A stretch of DNA of 64,000 nt from Actinomycetota bacterium (lineage in GTDB: Bacteria > Actinomycetota > Geothermincolia > Fen-727 > Anoxymicrobiaceae), in contig JAHJCO010000012.1 of the NCBI GenBank assembly GCA_018831265.1, forward strand, positions 62,001-126,000. The letters run 5' to 3'. Both the position numbers and the translations under genes were made by a program. The notes below the pieces were generated by a model. It saw nothing but the letters and a program-made list of their open reading frames with translations, searched no databases and was not told the DNA's origin. This document shows positions 20,093 to 57,195 of this stretch, piece after piece. Position 1 is the stretch's first letter; each line of letters starts with the position of its first letter.

Positions 20093-20202
20093 ATGACCTG
20101 CCTGGTGTGACTTGAATCCCGCCTGACCCCTACGCTAGTCAGCGATCTCGCCAAATGACCTGCCTGGTGTGACTTGAATCCCGCCTGACCCCCACGCTAG
20201 TC
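20093..20202. repeat. 48-base direct repeat, two copies
   Basis: Two near-identical 48-base copies (20093-20140 and 20155-20202) begin ATGACCTGCCTGGTGTGACT and end CGCTAGTC, differing at one base (CCCCTACG versus CCCCCACG), at a 62-base period. A partial inverted relative (GGGTCAGGGGGGACTTCAA) lies at 20056. The second copy supplies the TAG stop of the leftward gene that ends at 20197. Confidence 0.8.
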
Positions 20203-22446
20203 GACGTGGACGTTGCTCACGACCATGTTCAGCGGTACCTTCTCGAAGCCTGATACGTCCGGGAGCGGGGCGGCCGCGGCGTCGGTCTGGAGAACCAGGG
20301 AGTTCTCGCCGGGCCTCAGCGATGCGTTCTCGACGACCACCTCGACCGGCATCGCGCCCAGGCGCACTGTTCCGACCACCTTGCCGTTCAGACTTACCAC
20401 CAGCTCGCCGGAGCCGGCGGGCGCCACCGCCTTGAAGGAGATGGAGCGCTCGACCGGCTCGTCCAGGTGCGAATCCACGACCAGTTCTTCCCTCTGCAAC
20501 CCCGGGTGCCAGACCGCGCCGACGGGGTCGGTGAAAGGCTGCCAGGGCGCATCCAGGAACCGTGCCACGAAGTCCGCCTTCGGGGCTGTTACCCTGAACA
20601 CGTCGCAGGCGGGGAAAGACGCCACCTTCTCCAGCCCGGCGGGAAGCTTCAGGTCTGCATACGCCACAGGGAACTTATAGTTGGCAGAGGGCCCCTGCGG
20701 CAGCTCGTAGGAGGCCTTGAGGATCATCACGTAGTCCGCGCCCAGGAGCCTGAGTATGCCCGGGGTGTCGGGGTCCGTAATATCCAGCATCACCTGCCTG
20801 TACGACTCCCCGTCCCCCTCGGGACCATACCCGTCCAGCAGCGACTTCTCGTGGAGACGCTGGAAGAAGAGGTACCCGTAGGTGTTGAACTCGTCCCGCA
20901 TGTACATGGGGTAGATCGCGGCGGCCGGCTTGCCGGGCTGCTCGGCGAGCCAGTAGTAGTAGTCGGTGGTCTTGCTGGTATCCAGCGAGTAGAACGGAGG
21001 CACGATCGCGAACTCGGCCAGGACCAGCACGCACAGGACGGTGGTGACCAGCACCGCGTGCCTCGCCAGCCGGCGGTTCTCCAGCAGGAAGGAGACGCCG
21101 CAGGCGGCCAGCGCCGCAACGCAGAACATCACCAGCACCCCGAACCGCGAGTACGCCCTGAACTGCGGGACCACCTTGTACAGGAGCCAGGACGGGAAGT
21201 AGAGCTTTATCCGCAGCACCGTGGCGGTCGGCGGCATGGATACCACGAAGGCGACGGCGCCCGTGGCGAGGAGTCCCACGACGTACGGCAGGGATCCCGC
21301 CCTCCTGTCGAAACCCCCGATGCCGTTGCCTTGGCCATCTTCAGCGCCCTCGATCCTCTCCGTGTCCCCGCCTTCCCCGGCGTGAGGTTCCTCATCACCG
21401 GGTGGCCCGTTCGCGCGCCTCTTCTTCCCCGCCGCCGCTGCCCCCCACAGAGCCACACCCGAGAGCAGCAGGGGTACGTACCCCAGGAAGAGGCTGCTCT
21501 CACCCGTGTAGGAGCCGTGCATGTTCCCGGTCAGGAACCCCCGGGTGCGCCCGCCGAAGAGCGTGCTCTCGGCGCTCGGCAGGACGTACTCCCAGGGCCG
21601 GGCCGAGTACTGGTAGAGCGCCGACATCTCCCTGCGCTCCACCCTCGGCATCCTGAGGGCGACCAGCGCCAGTCCGGCGAGCGCGACCAGGACCAGGCAT
21701 ACCACCGCGACTGTGACGAGACGGCCGCGCCCGCCCTCACGGCGACCGCTCCGAGCGCGTCTCACCAGCAGCACTACGGGCACGAAGACGATCGCGAACA
21801 GCGCCGCCATCATCCCGTACTGCAGGTTGTAAAGCCAGGTGAGGACCAGTATCGCGGCGCACCAGACCACGGGACGCAGGCCGGGCTTCTCCAGCGCCTT
21901 CACCAGGAAGAGAGCGAAGAGCGGCAGCCAGAACGCGGACAGCAACCCGATATGCTCCTTGCCCTGCGCCAGCATGAACGGGCAGAACGCGAAGGCGAAC
22001 CCCGCGAACGCCGCGGCCGCCCTGCTCCCCGTGAGCCTGCGAGCGAAGAAGTACATCGCCACCGCGGTCAGGAAGAAGGACAGCAGCAGGATCACGTTGT
22101 AGGCGACGGTCTCGCCGGCGACGATGGACAGTGGGACGGTGATCAGGCTGGTGAGGGGGTTGGTGCCGAAGATGGTCTGCTTCCACCCGAACGGCACCGC
22201 CACCATCGTGCAGTTGGAGAGCGGCAGGCCATGGCCGAACGCGTACCGGAACCACCAGAACGACCACAGGGCGCCCAGCGGGTCGCGTTTCTCGGCGTAG
22301 GTACGGTGCAGGAGGGTGATCGCGGGGTAGGTGAAGACGATTGTCACAAGGCCGTAGAGCGCGAATACGGCGGACTCCGGCCGGAGGAATACCCTGGTTA
22401 TCCGCCTCTTCAGTCGGCCTTTGTTCTTCATCATGCTGGCTGCCAT
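20197..22446 (-). CDS. Large GT-C-like multi-pass membrane protein (YfhO-like)
   Basis: A 749-residue integral membrane protein with roughly ten to twelve hydrophobic segments in the N-terminal 470 residues (for example SAVFALYGLVTIVFTYPAI, 'YNVILLLSFFLTAVAMYFFA' and 'AAAAFAGFAFAFCPFMLA') and a C-terminal outer domain of beta-rich character. The first loop 'EKRDPLGALWSFWWFRYA' contains the acidic residue usually catalytic in GT-C enzymes. This layout is that of YfhO-like and related lipid-linked-sugar glycosyltransferases; donor and acceptor unknown. An Arg/Glu/Gly-rich low-complexity cytoplasmic stretch sits near residues 335-370. Its stop lies inside a repeat copy. The start codon is 46 bases from the divergent PMT-like gene; no ribosome site is visible. 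Confidence 0.75.
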   Translation of the reverse strand: MAASMMKNKGRLKRRITRVFLRPESAVFALYGLVTIVFTYPAITLLHRTYAEKRDPLGALWSFWWFRYAFGHGLPLSNCTMVAVPFGWKQTIFGTNPLTSLITVPLSIVAGETVAYNVILLLSFFLTAVAMYFFARRLTGSRAAAAFAGFAFAFCPFMLAQGKEHIGLLSAFWLPLFALFLVKALEKPGLRPVVWCAAILVLTWLYNLQYGMMAALFAIVFVPVVLLVRRARSGRREGGRGRLVTVAVVCLVLVALAGLALVALRMPRVERREMSALYQYSARPWEYVLPSAESTLFGGRTRGFLTGNMHGSYTGESSLFLGYVPLLLSGVALWGAAAAGKKRRANGPPGDEEPHAGEGGDTERIEGAEDGQGNGIGGFDRRAGSLPYVVGLLATGAVAFVVSMPPTATVLRIKLYFPSWLLYKVVPQFRAYSRFGVLVMFCVAALAACGVSFLLENRRLARHAVLVTTVLCVLVLAEFAIVPPFYSLDTSKTTDYYYWLAEQPGKPAAAIYPMYMRDEFNTYGYLFFQRLHEKSLLDGYGPEGDGESYRQVMLDITDPDTPGILRLLGADYVMILKASYELPQGPSANYKFPVAYADLKLPAGLEKVASFPACDVFRVTAPKADFVARFLDAPWQPFTDPVGAVWHPGLQREELVVDSHLDEPVERSISFKAVAPAGSGELVVSLNGKVVGTVRLGAMPVEVVVENASLRPGENSLVLQTDAAAAPLPDVSGFEKVPLNMVVSNVHVD

Positions 22447-22492: not shown

Positions 22493-24121
22493 ATGAACAC
22501 GCAAGGACCCCGGGCCGTCGATCTCCATGTGAACGGACGTAACAGAACGGGAGACAAGGGCAGCTTGGCCGATGATTCCTCGCATAAGACCTCGATCCGC
22601 GCGGAGAGGTTGCAGGACCTGCTCGTGGTCGCGGTCCTCACCCTCGCGGGGGCCGGCACCCGCCTCCTGTACCTGTTCCAGCCGGTAAGGCTCGACGAGA
22701 TCCAGACTTTCTTCGCGTACGTCCAGCGCCCGCTCTTCATCGCGCTCACCAAGAACAACCCCCCCAACAACCAGTTCTTCCATACCCTGCTGGTGAAGGC
22801 GTCCATCGGGGTGTTCGGCCCGCACGACTGGGCGATGCGGCTGCCCGCCTACATCGCAGGCATAGCGATGATCCCGCTCACCTACCTGGTCGTGCGCAGG
22901 CTGTTCGACCGGGGCGCCGTGTCGCCCCACCGCTGGGCGGCGATCCTGGCGGCCGGCCTGGTCGCGGGTTCCAGCCACCTCGTCGACTACTCCACCAGTG
23001 CCAGGGGATATACCATCCAGGCGGTCCTGGTCATCGGGCTGGTCCTGCTCGGCCTGAGACTGGAGCGCAGGCGCGCAACGTGGTCGTGGGCCGCTTTCGC
23101 GCTGCTGGCGATCCTCACCCTGTACACGATCCCGACCTCCGTCTACTTCGTAGGGGCAGTGGTGGTGTGGCTCGGCATCGCGGGCCTGCGCCGCTACACG
23201 GTGGAGAACAGGGCGCCGTTCCTCTTGAAGCTGGCCGCCTCCGGCGCGGCGGCGGGTCTGGTCACCGTCCTGCTCTACGTCCCGGTCATCACCACCTCGG
23301 GGCTCGCCAGCGTCACCAGCAACCCGATGGTCCAGCCCATGCCGTTCGGATACTTCCTCCAGGGGACCGTCAAGCTGGCGTGGGACACGTTCCGGTCGTG
23401 GAACGTAGCCATCGGCCCGGTCCTGGGGATCCTGCTGCTGATCTGCTTCGTCGCGGGCCTGGTGTTCTTCCGGAGGCTCTCCACCGAGAGGGTGGACCCG
23501 GTCCTGATCATGCTGGTCTTCAGCGTCGTGGCGCTGCTGGTCCAGAGGTCCGTACCCTTCACCAGGACCTGGATACCGTTGCTGCCGTTCTACTTCGGCA
23601 CCGCGGCGGCGGGCGGTCTCCACCTCGGCTCGTCCATTGTCGCCTTCGCCAGGGAGAAGGGCCTGAAGGCCAGGCCGAGCGCGGGCTTCGCGCTGGTGGC
23701 CGTCGTGGTGCTCTCCTGCTTCCTCTGCGCCCTGGTGATCGCGCAGGACACACCCTACCAGGCCAACTCGCTCGGCGTGCCGGCTCCCGAGAGCTCGTTC
23801 AAGGACGCCAGGGCAGTGGCTGACTACCTGAAGGACAACCTGCGGCCCGGCGACATCGTCTATATCGATCACTTCGCCGAGCCCACGCTGGAATTCTACC
23901 TGACACAGGAGGGGGTTCCGCCCGGATACCTTTTCGCCAACAACCAGGGCGCCGACACCGCTGCCGAGCCCCGCCGGGTCATCGTGGTGCTGGCAGGGAG
24001 TGAGGGGCACGGGTATGAGCCGGCGGTCTTCGACTGGGCAACGGCCGCGGACCTGCAGAACGCGGAGATACTCAAGATGCTCCCCTGCACGGTTATTATG
24101 GCCACGGAGGTTAAGAGGTGA
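22493..24121 (+). CDS. PMT-like glycosyltransferase (GT-C, family 39/83 type), cassette 1
   Basis: A 542-residue membrane protein. After a short cytoplasmic leader it shows 'LLYLFQPVRLDEIQTFFA', where the Asp-Glu pair after the first membrane segment is the hallmark of protein-O-mannosyl- or ArnT-like transferases (PMT_2 domain), and later 'DYSTSARGYTIQAVLV', also typical. About ten membrane segments follow, then a C-terminal domain outside the membrane with 'ESSFKDARAVADYLKDNLRPGD'. Such enzymes move a sugar from a polyprenyl carrier to a protein or glycan on the outer face. ATG 22493 is used in preference to an upstream in-frame ATG whose leader overlaps the divergent promoter. The next gene overlaps its stop by GTGA; the paralogue at 52.9 kb has the same partners. 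Confidence 0.82.
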   Translation: MNTQGPRAVDLHVNGRNRTGDKGSLADDSSHKTSIRAERLQDLLVVAVLTLAGAGTRLLYLFQPVRLDEIQTFFAYVQRPLFIALTKNNPPNNQFFHTLLVKASIGVFGPHDWAMRLPAYIAGIAMIPLTYLVVRRLFDRGAVSPHRWAAILAAGLVAGSSHLVDYSTSARGYTIQAVLVIGLVLLGLRLERRRATWSWAAFALLAILTLYTIPTSVYFVGAVVVWLGIAGLRRYTVENRAPFLLKLAASGAAAGLVTVLLYVPVITTSGLASVTSNPMVQPMPFGYFLQGTVKLAWDTFRSWNVAIGPVLGILLLICFVAGLVFFRRLSTERVDPVLIMLVFSVVALLVQRSVPFTRTWIPLLPFYFGTAAAGGLHLGSSIVAFAREKGLKARPSAGFALVAVVVLSCFLCALVIAQDTPYQANSLGVPAPESSFKDARAVADYLKDNLRPGDIVYIDHFAEPTLEFYLTQEGVPPGYLFANNQGADTAAEPRRVIVVLAGSEGHGYEPAVFDWATAADLQNAEILKMLPCTVIMATEVKR

Positions 24122-25029
24122 GGCGCTTCTTCGCCTTCGCCATGGCACTGACCGCCGCAGCCCTGCTCGCCGCCGCGGGCTGCGGCGGCCCGACGACGCT
24201 CAGGGTGGCGCTCAGGTCCGACACCCGCTTCAGCCTCAGCGGCATCTCTGCTCTGGAGGACGGGTCCGCATTTGCGGTCGGAGAGGACGGCGTCGTGTTG
24301 CGTATGGAGCCGGGTGGCGCGTGGCGTGAAGAGCCTGCCGCGACCTCTCACGACCTGGTGGGGGTGTTCGCGCTCGACGCGGCGCACGTGTGGGCCGTCG
24401 GCTCGGCGGGTACGATTCTCTTCTACGACGGGACCTCCTGGATGCCGCAGGACAGTGGGACCGAGGTCGAGCTGACGGGGGTCACGGCCACGGACCCGGA
24501 CCACGCCTGGGCCTGCGGCTGGGGCGAGGAGGTGCTTTTCTTCGACGGGGAGCGCTGGACCCGGCAGCACCAGGGAATGGCTTCGCTCAGGGGGATCGCG
24601 GCGGCGGACCCGGATCACGTGTGGGCGGTCGGGTCCAACGGGACCATCCTCTTCTACGACGGCGGGTCATGGTCGAGACAGGACTCAGAGACAACGGTCG
24701 AGCTTACCGGCGTCTGTGTCGGCGACGGCGGGGCCTGGGCGTGCGGGCTGGCCGGCCGCCTGCTCGAGTTCAGGGGCGCCTGGAGGACGGTGCGAAGCGG
24801 GGACGAGATGTTCAGGGGCATCGCCCGCTCTGGCGACGGTACGCTCTGGGTGGTCGGCTACCAGGACTTCACGTTCTCGACCGACCCGGGATCCGTGGTG
24901 CTGCGCCTGGACGGAGGCTGGATGGGCCTGGAGGTCCCGGAAGGGCTCTATCCCACGGGGGTGTCGACCTCGGGCGGAGGCGTCTGGGTCTGCGGGCTTG
25001 GGGGCGTCGTGTGGGGTGAGGCGCTGTGA
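24118..25029 (+). CDS. Secreted WAVG-repeat beta-propeller lipoprotein, cassette 1 (first)
   Basis: A 303-residue predicted lipoprotein: signal peptide ending ALLAAAGC (lipobox Cys near residue 22). The mature part is a run of about six ~40-residue units of the form 'L.GV.A.DP.HVWAVGS.GTILFYDG.SW..QDSGT', which I read as blades of a YCF48/HYR-like beta-propeller. No catalytic motif is seen. It would sit on the outside of the membrane, close to the product of the upstream PMT-like gene, with which its frame overlaps by GTGA. It in turn overlaps a second propeller gene. A role as sugar acceptor, sensor or scaffold is inference. Confidence 0.75.
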   Translation: MRRFFAFAMALTAAALLAAAGCGGPTTLRVALRSDTRFSLSGISALEDGSAFAVGEDGVVLRMEPGGAWREEPAATSHDLVGVFALDAAHVWAVGSAGTILFYDGTSWMPQDSGTEVELTGVTATDPDHAWACGWGEEVLFFDGERWTRQHQGMASLRGIAAADPDHVWAVGSNGTILFYDGGSWSRQDSETTVELTGVCVGDGGAWACGLAGRLLEFRGAWRTVRSGDEMFRGIARSGDGTLWVVGYQDFTFSTDPGSVVLRLDGGWMGLEVPEGLYPTGVSTSGGGVWVCGLGGVVWGEAL

Positions 25030-26015
25030 AGCGGCTGGTGCCGCTCGCGGCGGCCGTCCTCATCGCGGCGCTCTCCCTGGCTGGTTGCAACACCATCGAG
25101 GACACGCTCAGGGAGCATACCTACGGCCTGCTCGATGTCTTTGCCCTTGACCAGGAGAACGTGTGGGCCGTCGGTACCCGGGGGATGATCCTGCGCTGGG
25201 ACGGAGGCCGGTTCGTGCCGCAGGAGAGCGGCACCGCGGTGGACCTCCACGGGGTCTCGGCGGCCTCCCCCCGGGACGTATGGGCCGTCGGGGATGGTGG
25301 GACCGTCCTTCACTGCGACGGCACGGCGTGGAAACCGGTGCTCAGCCCCACCGACAGGGACCTCGCGGACGTCACAGCCGTGGCCGGGGCCTCGGGGACC
25401 GACCTCTGGGCGGTGGGGGGCGGCGGGACCGTGGTCCGCTACTCGTCGGGCTCGTGGACGGTGGAGAACCCGGTGGACTGGGAACTCTCCAGCATCGCGG
25501 CGGCGGGCGGCCGGGTCCTGGCCGGCGGGGAGAGGGGCGTCCTCGCGTACACAGGGACCTGGGGACTGGAGCTGGAGACACCCGAGCCCGTGAGTGCCGT
25601 TGCCGCCTCCGGCGACGGGCGGGCCTGGGCCGCGAGTCACCCGCTCGGGACATACCCGGTGATGGTATCCACGATCTTCGCCTGCGACCCGGCGGCCGGT
25701 TGGGGTCCCGTCTACCGGGTCGCCGACACGGCGGTCCGGGGGCTGGCGGCGGTCGGCCCCCGCGACGTCTACGCCTCATGCGACCACGGCGTGGTGGTGA
25801 GGTTCGACGGGGCCTCCTGGAGTCGAGAGAGCGTCTCCGTCTACGAGACCTACGCGGCTGTCTCCGGAGCGTCCCCCGAGCGGGTCTGGGTCGTCGGGAT
25901 GGAGGTCGGTACCCGGTGGGTCAGCCTCCCCGTGGCGCGCGAGTCGGCGGGGGGCTGGCACAGGGTGGACACGCCGATGTTTGTCTCCGGCGTCCTGCGC
26001 AGGGAACCCGAGTAG
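25026..26015 (+). CDS. Secreted WAVG-repeat beta-propeller lipoprotein, cassette 1 (second)
   Basis: A 329-residue paralogue of the preceding gene. Its signal peptide ends LSLAGC, so it is also a predicted lipoprotein. Repeats include 'DVFALDQENVWAVGTRGMIL', 'SPRDVWAVGDGGTVLHCDG' and 'PRDVYASCDHGVVVRFDG'. Fewer units are well conserved than in the first propeller, and the C-terminal units are more divergent. The start GTG overlaps the first propeller's stop by GTGA, so all three cassette genes are translationally coupled. A terminator-like hairpin with a T-run lies 107 bases downstream. Confidence 0.74.
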   Translation: MKRLVPLAAAVLIAALSLAGCNTIEDTLREHTYGLLDVFALDQENVWAVGTRGMILRWDGGRFVPQESGTAVDLHGVSAASPRDVWAVGDGGTVLHCDGTAWKPVLSPTDRDLADVTAVAGASGTDLWAVGGGGTVVRYSSGSWTVENPVDWELSSIAAAGGRVLAGGERGVLAYTGTWGLELETPEPVSAVAASGDGRAWAASHPLGTYPVMVSTIFACDPAAGWGPVYRVADTAVRGLAAVGPRDVYASCDHGVVVRFDGASWSRESVSVYETYAAVSGASPERVWVVGMEVGTRWVSLPVARESAGGWHRVDTPMFVSGVLRREPE

Positions 26016-26195: not shown

Positions 26196-26300
26196 ATGGA
26201 CCTCTGGAGCCATTACTGTTCTAATGTTCATGCGTTCGAGGCGGATGCAGGTGTGATGCTGCATGCAGGCTGGGCCGTAGCGACCGCAGGCGATTTGTGA
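26196..26300 (+). CDS. Possible 34-residue leader peptide before the giant gene
   Basis: ATG 26196 is preceded by GAGGAG with a four-base gap, the best ribosome site in this gap. The frame codes MDLWSHYCSNVHAFEADAG and ends in AGDL, with TGA at 26298-26300, 23 bases before the giant gene's ATG. It has no recognisable domain. It may be a regulatory leader or chance; the strong ribosome site is the main support. Confidence 0.35.
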   Translation: MDLWSHYCSNVHAFEADAGVMLHAGWAVATAGDL

Positions 26301-26323
26301 CCTATGGCCCAGGGGGTAGACGC

Positions 26324-29300
26324 ATGAGAACCTCATTCCTGCACGCGGACTCGGCAAGGACCCGCCTCGTACTATCGGCGCTCCTGCTGGTGTCGCTGGT
26401 GGCGGCCACCGTGCTGCTCTGGGGCGGTGCGGCCAGCGCGGCGCCGAACCTCTCCGTGTCGACCGGCGGGAGCAATGTGCTCCTGGGCGCCGACGCGACG
26501 GTGAACATCGACGTCACCAACAACGGCGACTCGCGGGGCTACAACCTCTCCCTGACCGACGAGTTCACCTCGAATCCCTTGAGGGGTGACGGGAAGAACA
26601 AGACCATCCAGTTCGTCTCCGCGAGCGGCCCGGACGGACCGCTCACCCCCACGTCGGTGGTCACCGACCCCGTCACCAACTCCCTGACCGTCAGGTTCGA
26701 CGATATCAGGGACCTGGTGCCCACCGAGAGTGCCCGGATAAGCATCGTGATACGCCCGTCCGACCCCACCTGGGCGGTGGGGGACCACATCGAGGACGAT
26801 GTCACCGCACGGGTCAACACGCAGCCCGACGGCGGCGGCTCGTGGATAGAGGGCACGGATACCGGCTCGCTGCAGATAGTCCCCATCAAGCTGGTCTCCA
26901 AGAGCGCGAACCAGTCCACCGGCGTAGAGCAGGCCACCGGGTGCGGCGAGCTCATCGGAGGCCGCTGGCCCTACACCTACACCATCCTGGTCCAGAACAA
27001 CTACGTGAACACCACCAACGCGGTGACGGTGCGGGACGTGATACCCGACGGCGTCGAGTACCTGGGGATCGCGGCGGGCCCCGCCCCCGACAACGTCTCG
27101 CGCGACAACGCCACTGGAATGACCACCCTTACATGGAACGTAGGGGACATGGCCGCATCCGCGACCTTCACCGTCACATACAACGCAGCCATCCGCTACG
27201 ACTTCTTCGGGACCGACAACGGGGGTACCAACAGGGCTTACGACGACTACGACGGCACGCCGCCGCTGGGCACCCCGATACCAAACAAGACCAACTTCAC
27301 CAACAACGCGGACCTCTCGGCGACGTACCTGGGGGTCCCCGTATCGGACGCGGACGACGCCTCGGTGACCGGCGCCTACGCCACGATAGCCAAGGGGGTC
27401 AACCCGGGCACCGCGGGCAATGGCGCGACGGTGCACTACACCCTTACCTACTCCGCGTCCGAGTACTACGACACGAGCAACCTGGTGGTGACCGACGTCC
27501 TGGGCGACGGGCTGACCTACACGGGGGGGAGCGCTGTCCCGGCCCCCGACTCGTTGGTGCACGATCCCGGCACCGGGGAGACCACTCTGACCTGGGACAC
27601 CCTGGCCGACCTGCCCGCGGGGGGCCAGGCGGCCATAACGTTCGACGCGACCGTCGACGACACCTGGGAGGACCCGCCGGACGCCGATCACACCTGGGTG
27701 GTCGCTGGCGACTCGCTGGACAACGACGTGACCTTCGCCGCCGATTGGGACGATACCCTCAGCGCGAGGACCGGCACCACCTCCACTGACACCTCCGCGG
27801 GCGTCACCGTCGGGCCGAAGCCCCCGGTGATGAAGGAGGCGGCGCTCGACAGCGGCGGGTCTCCGGGCACCTACGGCGATTCCGTCGACGCGGCGGTGGG
27901 GGACACCATCTGGTTCCGCGTTCGGGTCAACACCTCGGACGGCGCGAATCCCACCGTGAACACGGTGCAGTGGGGAAACCTGGACGCGGTCGACTGGATC
28001 CCGCGCGGGACGGCGTACGTGAACGGCTCCTCCACCATGAGCTACTCCGCGGCGGGTGACTTCAACTACGACCCGCCGGCGGGTAAGTACACCGCCCGCT
28101 ACGCAGACCAGCCCCAGCACATCAACTCGGGGTACCTGGACGGCTATGCGTGGTCTCTGGGTAACGTCGACGAGGGCGGCTGGTGGCAGGTCGAGTTCAA
28201 GGTCGTGGTGCAGGACTCGGCAGACGTGGTCGACGGTGCGACCTTCGACGACTACGGCAAGACCTCCTGGGAGAACTCCCATTCCAGCCAGTTCTCGGAC
28301 CGCGACCTGGCCACCGTGCACTACATCGAGCCCGACCTCTCCGCGGCCAAGGCGGTGACGGGCGGTGCAACGCCGCGCGGGGCCGGCAGCAGCGTGGACT
28401 ACAGGGTCACCCTGACGAACACCAGCGGCGCGACAGCCAACAACGTACTGGTGACCGACACCCTGCCGGTGGGGATGTGGGACTACGACCCGACATCGGG
28501 GGTAGTGACGGTGACGAGGGGCGTGACCGTCCTGAGCGAGGGCACCGACTACACGCTCTCCTACACGCCCGCCACCGGGGTGTTCCTGATCGATTTCGAC
28601 GACGGGGCATCCATACACACGGGGATACCCGCGCCTCCCTCCGCGGACAGCGTCGTAACCATCGATTACTCCGCGCGGGTGGACTCCGATACCGGGGCGG
28701 GGGCGAGCCTCACCAACAACGTGAGCACGACCTGGAGCGCCCAGAACGCGGGGACCAGCCCCAACCGGGACTACGGACCCGCCACCGCGAACTCGAACAT
28801 CCCCCTGGCCGCCATAACCGCGAGCAAGGCGATAGTGGGCGGGGACACCGTCCCCATCGGCAACGGCGCCGGCAGCGAGGTGACCTACCGGATAACCGTC
28901 ACCGTCCCGGCCGGCCAGGTCGCCAACTTCGGCAGCAACCGGCTCCAGGACACGCTCTACCAGGACGGCATGGAGTACATCACGGGGAGCACGCTGCTCT
29001 CGGACGTCAGCGGCACGCCGAACACGCCGGCGAGGTTCACCGGTGGCTCCACCACCGCGGACCCGACGATCCAGTGGACGACCCCCAACCCGGGGTGCAC
29101 CCTGTCCTGGAACCTGGACAACAACATAGACAACTCCGGCCAGGCAGCCGCATACGTCTTCCAGGTCGAGTTCAGGAAGGTGGCCACGGGCCTCATCACG
29201 CCGGTCAGCCAGGGCGGCAGCGCGACCAACCCCACCAACTGGAGGTTCTGGCCGAACACAGGGGGTAACCCCACGGCCGACAACCAGGTACGCGACAGGG

Positions 29301-32300
29301 GCAACTTCCGCTGGAGCGACAGCATCACGACGCGCACGGCGAACACCGGCGACCAGTACACCCACGTCTGGCAGCCGTACGACGTCCTGACCAAGACCAA
29401 CAACAAGGAGGGCCCGCCACCTATTCCCGTGAAGGCGGGCGACACGGTCCGCTACACGGACAGTATAGTGAACACCGGTCTAACCACCTCCTACGGCAAC
29501 CTGGTGGTGGACACCCTGCCCGTGGGCATGCGGGACACCACCCCGACCACGGTGAGCGTGACCCTCGGGGTCACCCCGCTTGTGGAGGGCACCGATTACT
29601 CCCGCTCCTACAACAGCGGCACCGGAGCCCTCACATACGACTTCGACGGGGGGGCCAGCGACACCGACATCGCGACGGGCCAGACGCTGGCGATAGTCTA
29701 CGACGCGCAGCTGGACAGCGACGTCGGCTCGGGGGCGGTGCTGACCAACACCGCCTACGTGGAGTACTACTCCGAGGACGGCGCCTCCGGCCGCCACGTG
29801 CAGAACGGCTCGGACTCCAACAACCAGAACAGGGACACCTCCAGCGTGCAGACCGCGCTTGCCACCATGGTCAAGTTCCTGGACGGACCCGACCCGGCCG
29901 TGATCGGTGAGGAGTCCGTCTACCGGCTGCGGGTAACCGTCCCCGAGGGGACCGACCTCTACAACCCCTCCATCGAGGACGTCCTCACCTCGAACGGGGT
30001 CGACTACGTTGCCGGCAGCTCCAGCCTCATCGACATCTCGGGCACGCCCGCCACGCCCGCGAGCTTCGAGAGCGGCTCCGATCCCGCTACGGACTACAAC
30101 ACGCCGAACCCGGGAGCGACCTTCGAATGGCAGCTGAACGACGTCATCAACACGGGCGGGGGATCCAGCGGCGACTACGTGTTCGACCTGCAGTTCTCAT
30201 GCGAGGTCAGCGGCCTCATCGACCCGGCCGGCGACCCGGCAGACCCCCTCAACTGGAACTGGTGGTGGGACACCGGCGGCAACCCGACCGCGGACAACAC
30301 CGCCCTCGACGGCGGCACGGTCTACTGGAACGACGGTTCGGTCGACCGCAGCGCCTCCAGCGGAAGCCAGACGCTCAACTGCCACCAGCCGCACCTGGTG
30401 CTCACCAAGGGCAACGACGGCGGAGGGGGAGTGGCCGGCGGCAGCACGGTCGGCTACACACTGAGCATCCTGAACAACGGGCGCTCCACCTCGCACAGGA
30501 ACTACGTGGTCGACACGCTCGATGCCGGCATGAGGGACACCGACCCGAGCGGGACGGTAGCCGCCACGCTGAACGGTGTGCCTCTGACCCCGGGGGACGA
30601 CTTCACGACCTCCTGGAACGGAGGCACCGGCAAGCTGACGGTGGACTTCCGGAACGGCTCCGGGGGCCCGGTGAGCATCCCGGCAGGCCAGACCCTGGTC
30701 GTCACCTACGACGGGGTGGTGGATGACGACGTCGGCGCGGGGGCAACCCTGACCAACATCGCCTCGGTATCGTACTGCTCGATGGCGGACGGCTCGGGGC
30801 GCACGGTCCCCGAGAACATGGACGTGGGCAGGTACAACACCGACTCATCCAGCGTGACAGTGCCGGAGGCCGGCCTGGCCAAGTCGCAGGACACGATCGG
30901 CAACGTATCCAACATCGGGCAGCAGTTCAGCTACACGCTGGACGCGACGGTGCCCGCTCATACCAGCCTCTACGAAGCGCTGGTGGGAGACACCATCGCG
31001 GACGGCCTGGCGGTCGATGCCACCTCCACCTACCTCGACGGCAGCCCGCAGGCGATCGGCACGGTAACGGTCACGCCCCAGGGCGACGGCACGACCGACG
31101 TCGACTGGGACATCGGCAACTACCAGAACGATACGGGCGTCACGCAGACCCTGTCGCTCAAGATAGTCGTTCACGTGAAGGACAAGTTCAACGACAACAG
31201 CGACGTCAGGGGCCTTCCGCCGCAGTCCGTGTTCTCCAACGGCGCGCTGCTGACCTGGAACGATCACCCGGGGGCCGGGGGGCACCTGAAAGCGGCCGCG
31301 GCGGCCGACGTCACCGCGACCGAGCCTTACCTGGACCTCACGGAGGCCAACGACGCCGCCGGCCCGGTCCCCGGAGGGCAGGCCGTCCACTACACGGTTG
31401 ACGTCCGCAACAACGGGACCGGCACCTCTTACCAGAACGTGATGGTGACAACGCTGCCCGTCGGCATGAGGGTGGGTGCGCCGGCGGTCACCTCCGTGAC
31501 CCTGGCCGGGGTCACCCTGACCGAGGGAGTCGACTACACGGTCGGCTGGAACTCCGGCACCGGTGAGCTGACCGTGGACCTGACCGCGGGCTCGGGCGGC
31601 GCGAAGCAGATACTGACCGGGATCGGCAACAGGCTCATGGTCTACTTCACCGCGACGCCCGACGAGGGTGTGGGAGCGGGCGCGACGCTCACCGACGTCT
31701 CCTCCATCGCTTACAACTCCTGGACTGACGCCAACGGCAGGGCCACGGCGCGCACCCTCAACCCCGCCGACCACAACACCGACGACTCGTCCGTGACCAT
31801 CGCACCCGCGGCGGTAACCAAGTCGCAGGACGTGGCGGGCGACCTGGCGAGCATCGGCCGGCCGTTTACCTATACGGCCTCGATCGCCGTGCCCGCTCAC
31901 ACCACCATCTTCAACGCGCAGGGGACCGACACGCTTCCCGACGGCATCTCGGTGGATGCCACCGCCACCTACCTGGACGGAAGCCCGCAGGTCATCGGGG
32001 TCGTCACCGTGACGCCGCAGGGAGACGGGACCACCGACGTCACCTGGGACCTTGGTGACTACGCCAACAGTACAGGCTCGACCCAGAACCTGCAGCTCAC
32101 GATGGACGTGCACATAAAGACCCAGTTCAACGACAGCTCTCCCGTGCGGGGACTGCCCCCGCAGTCGGTCTTCGGGAACACCTTCGACCTGGGATGGGAC
32201 GACGCGGAGTCCGGCGGAGGCCACCACACGGACTCGGACGCGGCTTCCGACGTCACCGCCATCGAGCCGCACCTGGTGCTGACCGAGGTCAACGACGCGG

Positions 32301-35300
32301 TGGGCCCGGTGGTCGGGAACCAGCCGGTCGGCTACACGGTCGAGGTGGTTAACACCGGCACCGGCACCTCGTATCAGAACGTCTTCGTCGACACCTTCCC
32401 GGTCGGAATGAGGGGCAACACGCCCACGGTAACGACCGTCACACTGGCCGGAGCCCCGCTGGCGGAGGGAACGGACTACACGGTCAACTGGAACCCGTCG
32501 ACCGGTGAGCTGACCGTGGACCTCACGGCGGGCTCCGGCGGCCCGAGGGACATCGCGACCGGCGATGTCAACAAGCTGGTCATAGGCTACACGCACAGCG
32601 CGTCGCAGGACGCGGGCTCGGCGGCCACGCTCACGGACATCGCCTCGATCGCATACAACTCCTGGACCAACGCCGACGGCCGGGCCACGCCCAGGACCTC
32701 CAACCCCGCCGACGACAACACCGACGACACCTCCATCACCGTCGTCTCCGCGACGGCCGCCAAGACGCAGAACGCGCCGGGCAACAACGTGACCATAGGC
32801 AGCACCTTCCTCTACACGGTGGCGGCCACGGTGCCCGCCCGTACCAGCCTCTACAACGCGAGCGCCGCGGACACCGTGCCGGACGGCCTCACCGTTACCG
32901 GGGTGTCCGTCACCCAGGGCTCCGCCGACTTCACCGAGAACCCCGACGGTACCACGGACGTGACCTGGACCATCGGCGATTACACCAACGCGAGCGACAG
33001 CCCCACCGACGTCTACCTGTACGTGGGCATACGCGTGGATAAGCAGTACAGCGGCGGCGCGGACGTCACCAGCGGTGACGACTTCGGCAACACGGCCGAC
33101 CTCACCTGGGAGGACGCAGAGAGCGGCGGCGGAAGCCACCTGACCTCGGGCGTCGCCGACATCGTGACGGTGAGGGAGCCGGCCGTCACGGTGACCAAGA
33201 GCGCGGACGATCTCACACCGGCCCCGGGCGACACGGTCACCTACACCATCGAGGTCGAGAACACGGGGGACTGGCCGGCCTACAACATCATGGTCGATGA
33301 CCAGGTGGACGGCGACATGACCTACGTGCCGGGCTCCATCACCGGCCCGGGCGCGAGCGTCACCGCACCCGATCTGTCCTGGGACTTCCAGGCCGGCATA
33401 CCGGGTCCGCTGAACCCGGGAATCACCGAGACCCTGACCTACCAGGCGACCGTCAACGGCGGCGTCGCGCAGGGCACGGTCATCCCGAACACCGCGCAGG
33501 TCCCCGCCTACTACAGCCTGACGCAGCCGAACACCTACGCCAGGCAGTACACCCCGGTGTCGGGGAGCAGGGACGTAACGACCCGGGCGCCGGTCCTGGC
33601 GGTCTCCAAGGAGGTCGTCTCGGGGGGCAACCCCGACTGGGGCGACATCGTGACGTACCGGGTGACGGTGACCAATAACGGGGACGCCGACGCCTACGAG
33701 GTCGGTGTGAGGGATACCATCCCCGACCCGTACTTCAGCTACGTGCCGGGGAGCACCAGCGCCACCTGGCCGGGCGGGTCATCGACCGCGGACCCGGCGG
33801 GGACGGCGCCCACCTACACCTGGAGCCTCGACGCCGACCTGGCCCCCACCGCGCAACTGGTCCTGGACTTCCAGATGAGCGTGGACCAGTGGGCCGCCTG
33901 GGGTAACCGGACGAACATCGGGACCGGGTTCGGTGAGGACGGCGGAGGAGCGGAGCTGCCCGAGGCCTCCGACACGGCGGACATCGACGTGCAGCAGCAC
34001 CCGGCCCTGCAGGTAACCAAGACGCTGGACGACCCCGACCACTACGTACCGGTAGGCGAGCAGTTCAGCTACACCATCCGCGTGACGGACGCCGGGAACA
34101 CCGGCATCCCGCTCGTGCCGACGGCCGATACCTACGACCCGGCCTACATGCAGTTCGTGAGCGCCACCATCACACCGGACACGAGCACCCCCGGCAACCT
34201 CGCCTGGAACGACCTGAGCCAGGGGACCGGGCTCGCCCCGCAATTGTTCGCGGAAGTGACCGTGACGTTCCAGGCCCTGCAGGCGGGTCTTACGCCCAAC
34301 ACGGATAACACCGCCTCGGTTACCACCGTGGACGACCAGAGCAACCCGGTGACGGGCACCGCCACCAACACGGAGCTGATCATCACCAACCCGGGGATCG
34401 CGGTGGGTAAGGTCCTGGACCACCCGGGCGGCTTCATCCCGGTGGGCGCGACCGCGACTTACACGATTCACGTGGAGAACAAGGGAGACACCGCCCTGGT
34501 CGCGCCCGTTCGGCTGACCGACACCTGTGACCCGGCGTTCCTGGAGTACCAGGGCGCCATCCCCGCGCCCGACACGGTGGTCGCCGGGACGCTCGTATGG
34601 AACGACGTCAGCGGTGGGGCCGGGCTGATCGTGGGCGGCTCGGTGGACGTAGCGGTGTCCTTCACCGCGCGCGCGGCGGGTACCACCCCCGGAACCGATG
34701 ATACCGCCAGCGTGGTGGCGACGGACGAGCACGGGGTCCCGGTCTCGGGACAGGAGACCAACACCGAGCTCATCATCACCGACCCGCGGTTGACGGTAGA
34801 CAAGGTTGTCAAGCCCGGGCAGAAGAGCCCGGTGAACGTCGGCGGCGACACGGTGTTCGTAATAACCGTGACCAACAGCGGTGACACGGTGATACCGGCT
34901 CCCGTTCCGATGAGCGACACCTACAACGCGGCGTACATGGCCTACAGGAGCGCGACCCTGGAACCCTCCAGCACCGGCTCGGGACGGGTGTCGTGGGACG
35001 ACATCACGGAAGGCTCCGGTCTCGCCGTCGGAGCGCACATCACCATCGAGCTCACCTGCGAGGCGCTCAAGCAGGGGTCGTCTCCCAACACCACGGACAC
35101 GGCCCGGATAACCGGTGTCGTGGACGAGCACGGCGACCCCGTCCCGCCCGCGCAGGACAGCGCCGCGGTCACAGTGGGAAAGGTACTGGGCTTCAAGCAC
35201 TGGTTCCTGGCCGAGGGCTCCACCGGCGGCGGCTTCGATACCTGGATACTGCTGCAGAACCCGGGTGAGGAGATCGCCAACACCCAGGTCACCTTCGCCA

Positions 35301-52909: not shown

Positions 52910-54481
52910 GTGAAGGCGGAGCACGAGGAGCCCCCCGCCCGAACCGCCGGTAGAGCGTCCCGCTACAGTGCTTACACCCTGGGCGCGCTGGTCCTCACGG
53001 GGGCCGTCGCCCGTCTTGTCTTCCTGTTTCAGCCCATACGCTACGACGAGGTCACCACCTTCTACGACTTCGCCATACAGCCCTTCGCCGTCGGCCTCAC
53101 CCACTACCCTTACCCCAACAACCACCTGCTCCTGACGTTCCTGGACAGGCTCATCATCCGGTACGTCTCCGACGCGGCCTGGGCGATCAGGCTCCCGGAT
53201 TTCCTGGCGGGGGTCCTCCTGGTACCCGCCCTCTACCTGCTGTTCAGGAGGCTCTACGGCGATCGTGCGGGCCTGTTCGCGGCGGCGCTCGCGGCGATCA
53301 ACCCGCTGCTGGTGTCGCAGTCCGTGCAGGCCCGCGGGTACTCCCTGCAGGCTCTGATAGTGGTGCTGCTGGTCATCGCGGCCGTCGGCCTGAAGCGAAG
53401 ACCGAGCGCCGGGGGCTGGGCCTGGTTCGTGGTGTTGACCGTCCTGGGTTTCTACGACATGCCGACCATGATCTACTTCATAGGACCGGTGGCAGCCTGG
53501 CTTCTCATCTCCGCGCTCGTGGGGGATGTCCCCCGGAAAGGGCTCCGGTTCGTCGCAGTGCTGGCGGGGTCCCTGGCCGCGGCGGGGCTGCTGACCTTCC
53601 TCCTGTACCTGCCGGTGATCTCGAAGGTCGGGGTCGGGTACCTGGTCAACAACCCGCAGACCAGGGCGTTCCCGCTCTCCTGGATACCCAGGATGATGCC
53701 GGGCATCGGGGTGAGTTCCTGGCGGGCCGTCAACCTCGACCTGGGGCCGCTGCTTCCCGCGGTGGTGCTCTTCGGCTTCGTAGTGGCCCTGGTCCTGCAC
53801 GGGCGGCTGTCGAGCGACCGGGTGAACCTGCCGCTCATCGCCGTCGCGTGGTACCTGCTGGTGGTGCTTGCCATGCGCGTGCCCCCGCCGCTCAGGGCCG
53901 TACTGCCGCTGGTGGCCCTGTACCTGGGGTTCGCCGGTGCCGGCCTGGACTACGCGGCGAGAAGGGCCGGCATGGCATACCGGCGGCTCTCGTTCCGGCG
54001 CAGGCGGTGGAGCCCGGGCACCGTGTGTGTGCTGGTGGTCGCGGTGACACTGTTCTTCGCATCACTGGTGGTCGCGGGGGCGAGCCCGTACGCCACACTG
54101 GAGGACGGCACCAGGGACCCTTCGCTCTTCAGGGTGGGCCCGGAGGTGGCCGGGGCACTGGATGACCTGCTGCTACCTGGCGACCTGGTCTACACGCCCC
54201 CGATAAGCATCTGGCCGCTGGAGTACAACTTCGCACTGAACGGCGTCCCGTTCGACTACCTGTACGGGAATATGCACGCGGCTCAGCCCGTGAGCCTGGC
54301 CTCGGTGAACAGGGTGATCGTGGTGGAGTCCTTCACCGAGCGGCACACCCTCGACTGGGCGGTCAGGGGGACGCCGGCCGAGGTGCTGGACTTCAGCGAG
54401 CCGTCGGAGGCGATCACCACCGACGAGTACCGGATACTGGTGTTCGACCTGCGCGAGGGGGGTGGCAAGGGTGGGCCGTAA
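52910..54481 (+). CDS. PMT-like glycosyltransferase (GT-C), cassette 2
   Basis: A 523-residue paralogue of the PMT-like gene at 22.5 kb. It shares the first-loop 'LVFLFQPIRYDEVTTFYDF' with its Asp-Glu pair, 'YPNNHLLLTFLDRLI', and 'QSVQARGYSLQALIVVLLVI'. About ten membrane segments follow, then an outer C-terminal domain of some 120 residues. It is expected to use a polyprenyl-linked sugar on the outer membrane face. GTG 52910 is the assigned start, with GGAG a little upstream. The next gene starts 20 bases before its end. Confidence 0.82.
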   Translation: MKAEHEEPPARTAGRASRYSAYTLGALVLTGAVARLVFLFQPIRYDEVTTFYDFAIQPFAVGLTHYPYPNNHLLLTFLDRLIIRYVSDAAWAIRLPDFLAGVLLVPALYLLFRRLYGDRAGLFAAALAAINPLLVSQSVQARGYSLQALIVVLLVIAAVGLKRRPSAGGWAWFVVLTVLGFYDMPTMIYFIGPVAAWLLISALVGDVPRKGLRFVAVLAGSLAAAGLLTFLLYLPVISKVGVGYLVNNPQTRAFPLSWIPRMMPGIGVSSWRAVNLDLGPLLPAVVLFGFVVALVLHGRLSSDRVNLPLIAVAWYLLVVLAMRVPPPLRAVLPLVALYLGFAGAGLDYAARRAGMAYRRLSFRRRRWSPGTVCVLVVAVTLFFASLVVAGASPYATLEDGTRDPSLFRVGPEVAGALDDLLLPGDLVYTPPISIWPLEYNFALNGVPFDYLYGNMHAAQPVSLASVNRVIVVESFTERHTLDWAVRGTPAEVLDFSEPSEAITTDEYRILVFDLREGGGKGGP

Positions 54482-55415
54482 GCGGAGCGTGTTGTCGGCG
54501 TGCCTGCTCCTGCTGGTGGTGCTCGTCATCGGCGCCGCCGTCATCTGGAACGCGCCCACTCCATACAGGTCCGGCGGGAGCCTCCCCGGTCTCGCGCGCA
54601 TCGACCCCCCGTTTGGCGTCCGGTTCTACGGGGTCAGCGCGCTGGGCCGCGACTCGGCCTGGGTGGTGGGCGACGCCGGGGTGGTGCTGCATTACGACGG
54701 AACCGGTTGGAGCAGACACGACGCGGGCACCACGCTGCAGCTCAACGCGGTGTGCGCCGTCGACCCCTCACACGTTTGGGTCGTCGGGTCCCGGGGTTTC
54801 GCGGCCCTGTTCGACGGCCGGTCCTGGCGGGCGGTCCCGACAGGCGTAGACCGGGAGCTGACCGCGGTCAGTGCCCTCGATCCGGAGCACGTATGGGCGG
54901 TTGGCTGGGGAGGCATTGTCCTCTTCTTCGACGGGGAGCGGTGGTCGACGGAGCGGCTGGACGTGGCGGTCCTCAGGGGAGTGCACGTGGTGGACCGGAC
55001 GGAGGTGTGGGCCGTCGGCGACTCCGGGTTGCTCTACCGCTACGACGGCGATCGGTGGGCGCGCAGGCCTTCGGGTACGGACATGGAGCTTACCGCTGTC
55101 GCGGCCGCGCCCGGCGCCCCGCAGGCGGTGGGCCTCGAGGGGACCATCCTGACCGTCGACGGCACATCCGCCCGGGTGACCCGTGACGGCAACACCACCT
55201 TCCGGGGAGTCGCGCGCAGGGGTGACTCCCGATGGGCGGTGGGGTTCTCCAAACCGCTGTGGATGCACAGGGAGAGCCTGGTGCTGAAAGCCTCGGGGGA
55301 CGGTCCGTGGCTGACCGTTCCCGCGCCCGAGGGGCTCTACCCGACCGCGATATCGGTCGCGGATGACGGCTCGGTCTTCGTCGCGGGCCTGGGGGGTGTG
55401 TGCGTTGCGCGGTGA
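54462..55415 (+). CDS. WAVG-repeat beta-propeller, cassette 2 (first)
   Basis: A 317-residue protein with an uncleaved-looking N-terminal membrane anchor ('SVLSACLLLLVVLVIGAAVI', about residues 9-28) and no lipobox. The outer part has about six propeller units: 'DSAWVVGDAGVVLHYDGTGW', 'PSHVWVVGSRGFAALFDG', 'PEHVWAVGWGGIVLFFDGER', 'RTEVWAVGDSGLLYRYDG'. It closely resembles the first propeller of cassette 1, down to the closing 'PEGLYPT' block. GTG 54462 overlaps the upstream gene by 20 bases (GTG 54471 is an alternative). Confidence 0.75.
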   Translation: MARVGRKRSVLSACLLLLVVLVIGAAVIWNAPTPYRSGGSLPGLARIDPPFGVRFYGVSALGRDSAWVVGDAGVVLHYDGTGWSRHDAGTTLQLNAVCAVDPSHVWVVGSRGFAALFDGRSWRAVPTGVDRELTAVSALDPEHVWAVGWGGIVLFFDGERWSTERLDVAVLRGVHVVDRTEVWAVGDSGLLYRYDGDRWARRPSGTDMELTAVAAAPGAPQAVGLEGTILTVDGTSARVTRDGNTTFRGVARRGDSRWAVGFSKPLWMHRESLVLKASGDGPWLTVPAPEGLYPTAISVADDGSVFVAGLGGVCVAR

Positions 55416-56436
55416 CAGGGCGCACAGGCCCTCGGCGCTCCCCTGGTTGCTCGTAGCACTGGTATCCGTCATGGTACTGGTCTTCGTCTACCCGATGGGC
55501 GGGCGGATAGTGGACTGGTCGGCCGGGCTTGCCGAGCGGGGGAGCTCCTTCGGTAGTGTGGCCGCCCTCGACGACGGCCACGCCTGGGTTGTGGGCACGG
55601 ACGGCTCTATCTACTTCCGGGACGGGAGGTCGTGGGAGAAGCAGGACAGCGGCACGGAAAGGTCACTGATCGCCGCCGCCGCCGCCGACCCGGACCACGT
55701 TTGGGCGATCTACGACAACGGGGTCCTGAGGTTCGACGGCAAGTCCTGGAGCGCCGAAGCCGGCCTGAGAGGGGCATCCGGGCTGCGCGCGATCTGCGCC
55801 GCCGACGCCTCGCACGTGTGGGTGGTGGGCGCCTCCGGCCTCGTCCTCTTCTTCGACGGCGAGAGCTGGAGCAGGCAGGAAAGCGGCGTGGACTGGGGGC
55901 TGGCTTCCGTGTGCTCGGCGGGACCGGACCGCGCCTGGGCGGTCGGTGAGGGCGGCATCCTCGCCTTCGACGGGCAGTCCTGGCGAACGGAGTGGAGCAG
56001 CGGGGACTCCGGCGTGAGCGCCCGCCTGACCGGCGTGGCCACCTCCGGCGGTGGGGACGCCTGGGCGGTGGGCTTCTCGGCGGATACGACATACCTGCCG
56101 GTGTCGGTCTTCCTGCGGCGGCAGGGCGGTTCATGGTCGGTCGCCCACCGGGAACCGGACCTGCGTTTCACCTTGATACATGTAGACGCCGAGTCCCGCC
56201 TCTGGGCCGCGGGCAGCGGCTACGCCCTGGTCACATACCAGGACGGCGCCTGGAGCAGGCCGCTGCGGAGCTCCGAGGAGCTCGACTACTTCACGACCTA
56301 CGGGATCGACTCCGGCGGAGGGACGCTCTTCATGGCGGGCAACCTCGCGGCGACGGGCGGGATGACCTTCGCCTCGGTATTCGAGATGGAGGACGGGGTC
56401 TGGAACATGACCGGCTTCCCCGGGGCGGGCAAGTGA
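55405..56436 (+). CDS. WAVG-repeat beta-propeller, cassette 2 (second)
   Basis: A 343-residue protein with an N-terminal membrane anchor ('ALPWLLVALVSVMVLVFVYP') and about seven propeller units such as 'DGHAWVVGTDGSIYFRDG', 'PDHVWAIYDNGVLRFDGKSW' and 'ASHVWVVGASGLVLFFDGES'. TTG 55405 is preferred, being eight bases after GGGGGG; it overlaps the first propeller's end by 11 bases. The longer frame from 55363 is a shadow. A terminator follows at 56472-56491. Confidence 0.74.
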   Translation: MRGDRAHRPSALPWLLVALVSVMVLVFVYPMGGRIVDWSAGLAERGSSFGSVAALDDGHAWVVGTDGSIYFRDGRSWEKQDSGTERSLIAAAAADPDHVWAIYDNGVLRFDGKSWSAEAGLRGASGLRAICAADASHVWVVGASGLVLFFDGESWSRQESGVDWGLASVCSAGPDRAWAVGEGGILAFDGQSWRTEWSSGDSGVSARLTGVATSGGGDAWAVGFSADTTYLPVSVFLRRQGGSWSVAHREPDLRFTLIHVDAESRLWAAGSGYALVTYQDGAWSRPLRSSEELDYFTTYGIDSGGGTLFMAGNLAATGGMTFASVFEMEDGVWNMTGFPGAGK

Positions 56437-56491: not shown

Positions 56492-56613
56492 CACTATACC
56501 GTGGGAGCCGGGAGTGCGTTAATGACTCTTTGCCGGATGGCGTTATATCCCGTGGACGTGGCGACCCCGGGGAGCGCGGCGTAATCAGGGGCGCGGGCGA
56601 CCGTATACCAGAC

Positions 56614-57195
56614 ATGCAAGAGCAACAGCTCAACAGGATAATCGAGCAGGCGCGGACCAGCCCGGAGGCGTTCGGGGTGCTGTACGACACGTTCCAGCCG
56701 ATGATGTTCAGCTACGTTGCCCGGCGGGTATCCAACACCGCGGACGCCGAGGACGTGTGCGCGCAGGTCTTCGAGAAGCTGCTGATCGGCCTCGGCCGCT
56801 TCGACCCGGAGCGGGCGTCATTCAAGACCTGGCTCTACAAGGTGGCGAACAACACGGTGATCGACTACTACCGCGAAAGGGGCAAGACCCGCCACCTGAG
56901 CCTGGACGAGGCCATGGAGACCTACCGGTACGAAGGCCGGGTGGAGGTGGACTACACGCGGAAGTACCTGCAGGTGATGTCGCTGATCTCCGAGCTGCCG
57001 AGCGCCCACCAGGAGGTGCTGTCTCTTCGGTTTATTGAAGACATGGAGAACGACGAGATCGCCAGGGTGCTGGGTTGCAGCAAGCGCCACGCCGCCGTGA
57101 AGCTTTTCAGGGCCCTCAAGGCGCTGAGGAAGCTGGCGGCCGACAGTGGTGTGCTTGACGAGATCGAGGAAGGCGTTTCCGGTGGCCGGGGTTAA
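56614..57195 (+). CDS. ECF-type RNA polymerase sigma factor
   Basis: A 193-residue sigma-70-family protein. Region 2 is seen as 'DTFQPMMFSYVARRVSNTAD', 'AEDVCAQVFEKLLIGLGRFD' and 'FKTWLYKVANNTVIDYYRER'; region 4 as 'LPSAHQEVLSLRFIEDMEND' then 'EIARVLGCSKRHAAVKLFRA'. Regions 1.1 and 3 are absent, as in ECF factors. ATG 56614 is chosen; no ribosome site is visible, and an upstream TTG at 56530 would add 28 residues of non-conserved sequence. The next gene, a membrane protein with FecR-like domain, overlaps its end by 14 bases and could serve as its anti-sigma factor. Confidence 0.85.
   Translation: MQEQQLNRIIEQARTSPEAFGVLYDTFQPMMFSYVARRVSNTADAEDVCAQVFEKLLIGLGRFDPERASFKTWLYKVANNTVIDYYRERGKTRHLSLDEAMETYRYEGRVEVDYTRKYLQVMSLISELPSAHQEVLSLRFIEDMENDEIARVLGCSKRHAAVKLFRALKALRKLAADSGVLDEIEEGVSGGRG

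Follow-up and report, generated by a model that had tools for sequence, protein, structure and literature searches.

Operons of a GT-C_A membrane glycosyltransferase and surface-anchored propeller proteins in two genera of Actinomycetota

Operon units in the window and in the genome

The stretch of DNA analysed, hereafter the window, comprises 64,000 nucleotides of contig JAHJCO010000012.1 from an Actinomycetota bacterium of the family Anoxymicrobiaceae (assembly GCA_018831265.1). It contains two operons, at 22493-26015 and 52910-56436, in each of which a glycosyltransferase gene (T) is followed by two propeller genes (P). All six open reading frames are present at these coordinates, in the same order in both units:

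22493..24121, + strand: T1, GT-C_A membrane glycosyltransferase of the PMT_2 family, PNN-motif group; ATG 22493 is the likely start
24118..25029, + strand: P1a, seven-bladed WAVG propeller lipoprotein; 4-nt GTGA overlap with T1
25026..26015, + strand: P1b, WAVG propeller lipoprotein; 4-nt GTGA overlap with P1a
52910..54481, + strand: T2, paralogue of T1 with 34% identity; PMT_2 score 43.9 bits
54462..55415, + strand: P2a, WAVG propeller with an N-terminal transmembrane anchor and without a lipobox; 45% identity to P1a
55363..56436, + strand: P2b, WAVG propeller with an N-terminal transmembrane anchor and without a lipobox; start uncertain (55363, 55396 or 55405)

A sequence-only reading of this DNA had described the first three genes as a unit that recurs with paralogous proteins at 52.9 kb, which is borne out gene for gene: the E-value is 2e-70 between T1 and T2, 8e-64 between the first propellers, and 3e-25 between the second propellers, P1b and P2b, which share 32% identity. 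P1b is also homologous to P1a (E 4e-28). The GTGA overlaps reported in that reading are exact in the first unit, spanning 24118-24121 (T1/P1a) and 25026-25029 (P1a/P1b), but the overlaps of the second unit are longer, with 20 nt between T2 and P2a and up to 53 nt between P2a and P2b. If P2b begins at one of the nearer in-frame starts, 55396 or 55405, the latter overlap is only 20 or 11 nt.

The whole genome (3.87 Mb in 60 contigs) was searched with a profile built from T1 and T2, and the T group was found to consist of exactly three genes: T1, T2, and one on contig C57. In this third unit, T is followed after a 1-nt gap by a single propeller lipoprotein. The start-stop overlaps, or the 1-nt gap, suggest that T and P are co-translated. 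PMT_2 matches 18 places in the genome, and by coordinates no propeller lies near any of the 15 that are outside the T group.

Some genes next to the two units were also noted. A gene for a 749-residue multi-pass membrane protein (20197-22446, - strand) is transcribed away from T1, the two starts lying 46 bp apart; the protein has a weak DUF6541 match below the cut-off and may be another membrane glycosyltransferase expressed from a shared promoter region. Directly 3' of the first unit, 26297-36589 encodes a secreted protein of 3430 residues with many DUF11 repeats, whose repeats near the C terminus, each about 110 residues long, are found again, by eye, in other secreted proteins of the genome (e.g., L031 7453-9735). 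Directly 3' of the second unit, at 56530-58567, sequence reading gives a sigma factor of the ECF type and, after it, a protein that is FecR-like or an anti-sigma factor, and a similar sigma-factor-like gene (L040 3110-3685) adjoins a propeller protein of 2888 residues.

The transferase and the propellers

Both transferases of the window pass the Pfam family PMT_2, T1 scoring 34.9 bits and T2 43.9 bits against a cut-off of 26.1. The predicted structure of T1, a protein of about 540 residues, has a GT-C_A fold (pLDDT 87), and its best solved match in Foldseek is ArnT (5ezm/5f15; TM 0.55, E 1e-7), followed by OST subunits, AftA, DPY19, ALG9 and Pmt4. When the genome was scanned for PF02366, the PMT family (GT39), four other places matched, none of which is one of the three T, and "PMT" should therefore be read as "GT-C_A". 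Hence, the label of PMT-like transferase given in the sequence-only reading is not retained: T belongs to the GT-C_A enzymes, with ArnT as its closest fold, and lies outside the PMT (GT39) family. No solved GT-C was retrieved in a sequence-profile search with T, and no ArnT-specific family match was found in Pfam or NCBIfam.

Three groups of residues are invariant across 30 T homologues: D48/E49, P71-N72-N73 and R151-G152-Y153 (T1 numbering, counted from 22553). The acidic pair D48/E49 sits in the first extracytoplasmic loop. This invariance argues for T being an active enzyme, and the T group probably attaches sugars outside the cell. For the widespread bacterial PNN-motif GT-C group, no characterised acceptor was found.

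Among the propellers, P1a was modelled (pLDDT 88, pTM 0.84), yielding a propeller closed by the N-terminal strand, with seven blades as counted by eye from the strand list. The top solved folds for this model in Foldseek are Ycf48 structures (E 2e-10, TM 0.70), with designed and WD40 propellers close behind, and the best PDB sequence match of the P profile is the Ycf48 lipoprotein. P1b presents a weak PSII_BNR/Ycf48 match in Pfam. The Ycf48 equivalog (PRK13684) has a cut-off of 326 bits, which is not reached: P1b and P2a score only 15.9-17.9 bits, and P1a and P2b are without any listed match. The best P scores against Tectonin (PF19193), 25.6 and 23.9 bits (E 1e-5 to 3e-5), are below the gathering cut-off of 30, a weak DUF346 match in Pfam (E 0.04) is below the curated cut-off, and tectonin 2 and fishelectin appear among the fold and sequence matches. 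The LpqB propeller domain is absent from the Pfam matches of P up to E 1.

That the propellers are lipoproteins, as the sequence-only reading proposed, holds for the first unit and not for the second. P1a has the lipobox TAAALLAAAGC (Cys22) and P1b a lipobox with Cys21, and a lipobox with its cysteine is likewise present in the P of the C57 unit and in all three P of fen_727, the second genome described below. P2a and P2b gave no lipobox pattern match under the starts tried and have strongly hydrophobic N-terminal transmembrane stretches; judging by these N termini, both are membrane-anchored and not lipoproteins. A PMT-type Ser/Thr/Pro-rich linker after the lipobox was found in none of the P, which contain 12-17% Ser+Thr, 2-5% Pro, and few sequons.

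Conservation and linkage of the units

Among the 31 genomes of the class that were searched, only Actinomycetota bacterium fen_727 (G004) carries, besides the source genome, T-group genes followed by propellers; its two units have the orders T+P+P and T+P. Its T+P+P unit presents identities to the first unit of the window of 50% for T, 52% for the first propeller and 38% for the second, and its T+P unit identities to the C57 unit of 38% for T and 33% for P. T and P have thus diverged in step between the two genera. Upstream of the first fen_727 unit lies a gene of the URO-D family, and the frames downstream of it resemble, by eye, pdxS and phytoene dehydrogenase genes, whereas the first unit of the window is flanked, by eye, by purH upstream and the giant DUF11 protein downstream. 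Given that the flanking genes differ between the genera and the units are kept, it is the block that is conserved, and not the region. A conserved working unit with probable co-translation, as initially suggested from the sequence, is hence supported, with three occurrences in this genome and two in another genus, in different surroundings.

In the two linked genomes, P lies directly downstream of five of five T-group genes, three in the source genome and two in fen_727. Near the more distant actinobacterial T homologues, no propeller was found on the available sequence (0/11 in L065-L075 and 0/2 in L076), the downstream stretch being short for a few of them, e.g., 451 nt in L072. Scanning a collection of 84,980 species for T yielded 76 loci, two of which are the fen_727 units; since the scan uses short peptide patterns, relatives can be missed. 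The other 74, from many phyla, present no propeller in any of the six frames, and for 63 of these the sequence continues for 1 kb or more beyond T. They include the Chloroflexota, where the sequence-only reading had proposed to look for transferase and propellers together: T homologues do exist there, but not with a propeller neighbour.

In the phylogenetic tree, the five unit T form one supported clade (100/98) with the T of two further genomes (G008 and G003), all in the same GTDB family. The T of G008 and G003 have no propeller, which indicates the enzyme can work without P, and the same lack of a propeller applies to a T fragment at a contig edge in G003, which the tree does not include. 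The linkage of T and P is therefore strong but lineage-bound, and it is not obligatory for the enzyme. Both one gain and several gains of P are compatible with the positions of the five unit T. No plasmid match was found for the unit, which leaves spread by plasmids unsupported.

Two other accounts of the linkage were considered and rejected. Chance neighbourhood is set aside by the 5/5 linkage, against 0/15 for the other PMT_2 places near a propeller. Replacement by P of a lost N-terminal two-helix extension of T is rejected because the P-less T of G008, G003 and other actinobacteria also lack this extension.

Of the 31 genomes of the class, 28 contain propellers of this type, most of which have no GT-C beside them. 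The propeller is strongly expanded in the source genome, in which about ten further loci, likewise without a GT-C neighbour, encode it, many as large secreted proteins of 400-2900 residues; the same lack of a GT-C neighbour applies to stand-alone relatives in other genomes. The sequence-only reading had held that propellers occurring mostly without a GT-C neighbour would speak against a working unit. This is how the propeller family as a whole occurs, but not the operon propellers, with their 5/5 linkage.

Two of the secreted proteins, of 2888 residues (L040 4249-12915) and 1621 residues (L035 6999-11864), contain many WAVG propeller repeats. A WAVG propeller gene is also found directly upstream of a GAF/PAS histidine kinase gene in four genera of the family, three of which have a divergent MMPL/Patched-like transporter too:

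L033, 3995-7286 and 7781-10255: propeller-kinase locus
L166, 4027-7250: propeller-kinase locus
L169, 1886-8801: propeller-kinase locus
L173, 1939-7939: propeller-kinase locus

This pairing occurs in more genera than the GT-C unit does and resembles LpqB-MtrB. Its presence in four genera suggests that propellers of this type may tend to be paired with membrane proteins.

Interpretation and comparison with known systems

Each unit may be an operon for an extracytoplasmic sugar-transfer machine. The integral-membrane GT-C_A enzyme T would use a sugar carried on polyprenyl phosphate, transferring it to an acceptor on the outward-facing side of the membrane, and one or two P, attached to this side through a lipid or a transmembrane helix, would assemble or stabilise T, or dock its acceptor, as Ycf48 serves a membrane complex. 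What the analysis shows directly is the make-up of the operons, their recurrence and conservation, both predicted folds, the conserved acidic residues of the GT-C, and how the P are anchored. Catalysis, the sugar, the acceptor and a physical contact between T and P are what we infer.

That the P are dedicated extracytoplasmic partners of T, as assembly or acceptor-docking subunits, is the explanation we tentatively prefer, our confidence in it falling slightly short of even. It is favoured by the 5/5 linkage, the different flanks, the in-step divergence, the overlaps or 1-nt gap, the likeness to Ycf48, the propeller-kinase pairing in four genera of the family, and the GT-C_A fold with D48/E49. 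Against it, only two genomes present the linkage, propeller number and anchoring vary, Ycf48-like folds are generic, with designed and WD40 propellers scoring close behind, and the G008 and G003 T of the same clade do without a propeller. Whether these genes encode a transferase holoenzyme of a new kind is more doubtful. Such an enzyme would have a catalytic GT-C subunit and one or two propeller subunits, anchored at the surface, for its assembly or for the choice of its acceptor, and several paralogous versions per cell would differ in propeller number and anchor.

The P could instead be acceptors, surface adhesins or sensors that need a sugar which T attaches to them. Genes of enzymes and their substrates are often neighbours, and the P are exported and held on the side of the membrane towards which the GT-C active site is turned. 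Actinobacteria are known to glycosylate proteins with membrane transferases (PMC5882110). Yet we regard this explanation as unlikely, considering that the P have no Ser/Thr/Pro-rich linker and few sequons, that T is not a PMT family member, and that the genome has about ten further propeller loci without T. Similarly improbable is an operon of surface genes with shared expression only, duplicated and inherited as a block with no direct functional link. The abundance of propellers in the class and the confinement of the linkage to two genera agree with it, although a 5/5 linkage that persists through about 50% or more divergence, in different surroundings and mostly with overlapping frames, does not. 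Less probable still is that the P are lectins binding a glycan made by T, on their own envelope or on neighbours, and holding it at the surface. Seven-bladed propeller lectins are known from Photorhabdus (PMC12203525), and the weak Tectonin and DUF346 matches, along with tectonin 2 and fishelectin, point this way; however, none of these family matches reaches its curated cut-off, Ycf48 and plain propellers are the better matches, and no sugar-binding residues were identified in P.

No operon of a GT-C and a propeller was found in the open-access literature searched. The operon type is real, conserved and apparently undescribed, with known folds newly combined, and so far limited to two genera; it is not evidence of a new principle. 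A lineage that pairs the enzyme with one or two surface proteins probably dedicated to it offers a handle for finding the acceptor of the PNN-group GT-C, and for testing whether propellers serve a transferase in assembly or docking. Together with the propeller-kinase pairing in the same family, the units suggest that some of the numerous propellers are outside partners of membrane proteins.

Among known systems, LpqB has a propeller domain and acts as a modulator of MtrB. The two are an actinobacterial lipoprotein and its membrane kinase (PMC10714768), and resemble the unit in that a surface lipoprotein is encoded beside a membrane protein, but P has no LpqB family match and its partner is a transferase instead of a kinase. 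The actinobacterial Ppm1-Pmt system performs extracytoplasmic O-mannosylation of exported proteins with a polyprenyl-phosphate sugar (PMC5882110). It is similar to the proposed T as an extracytoplasmic membrane transferase using such a sugar, and dissimilar given the missing PF02366 match of T and the missing PMT-type linkers of P. ArnT and the GT-C_A enzymes of the PMT_2 clan share with T the fold, the multi-pass topology and the invariant acidic pair in the first loop, although T lacks an ArnT-specific family match and retrieves no solved GT-C by profile. In cyanobacteria, Ycf48 is a lipidated seven-bladed propeller acting as an assembly factor of photosystem II (PMC8038367). P scores far below the 326-bit equivalog cut-off of Ycf48/HCF136 and neighbours a GT-C instead of a photosystem. 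Nevertheless, Ycf48 is the best sequence and fold match, the modelled P1a has the same seven-bladed propeller, and the P of the first unit, the C57 unit and fen_727 have a similar lipid anchor. By analogy, Ycf48 shows that a partner role is possible for a lipidated propeller.
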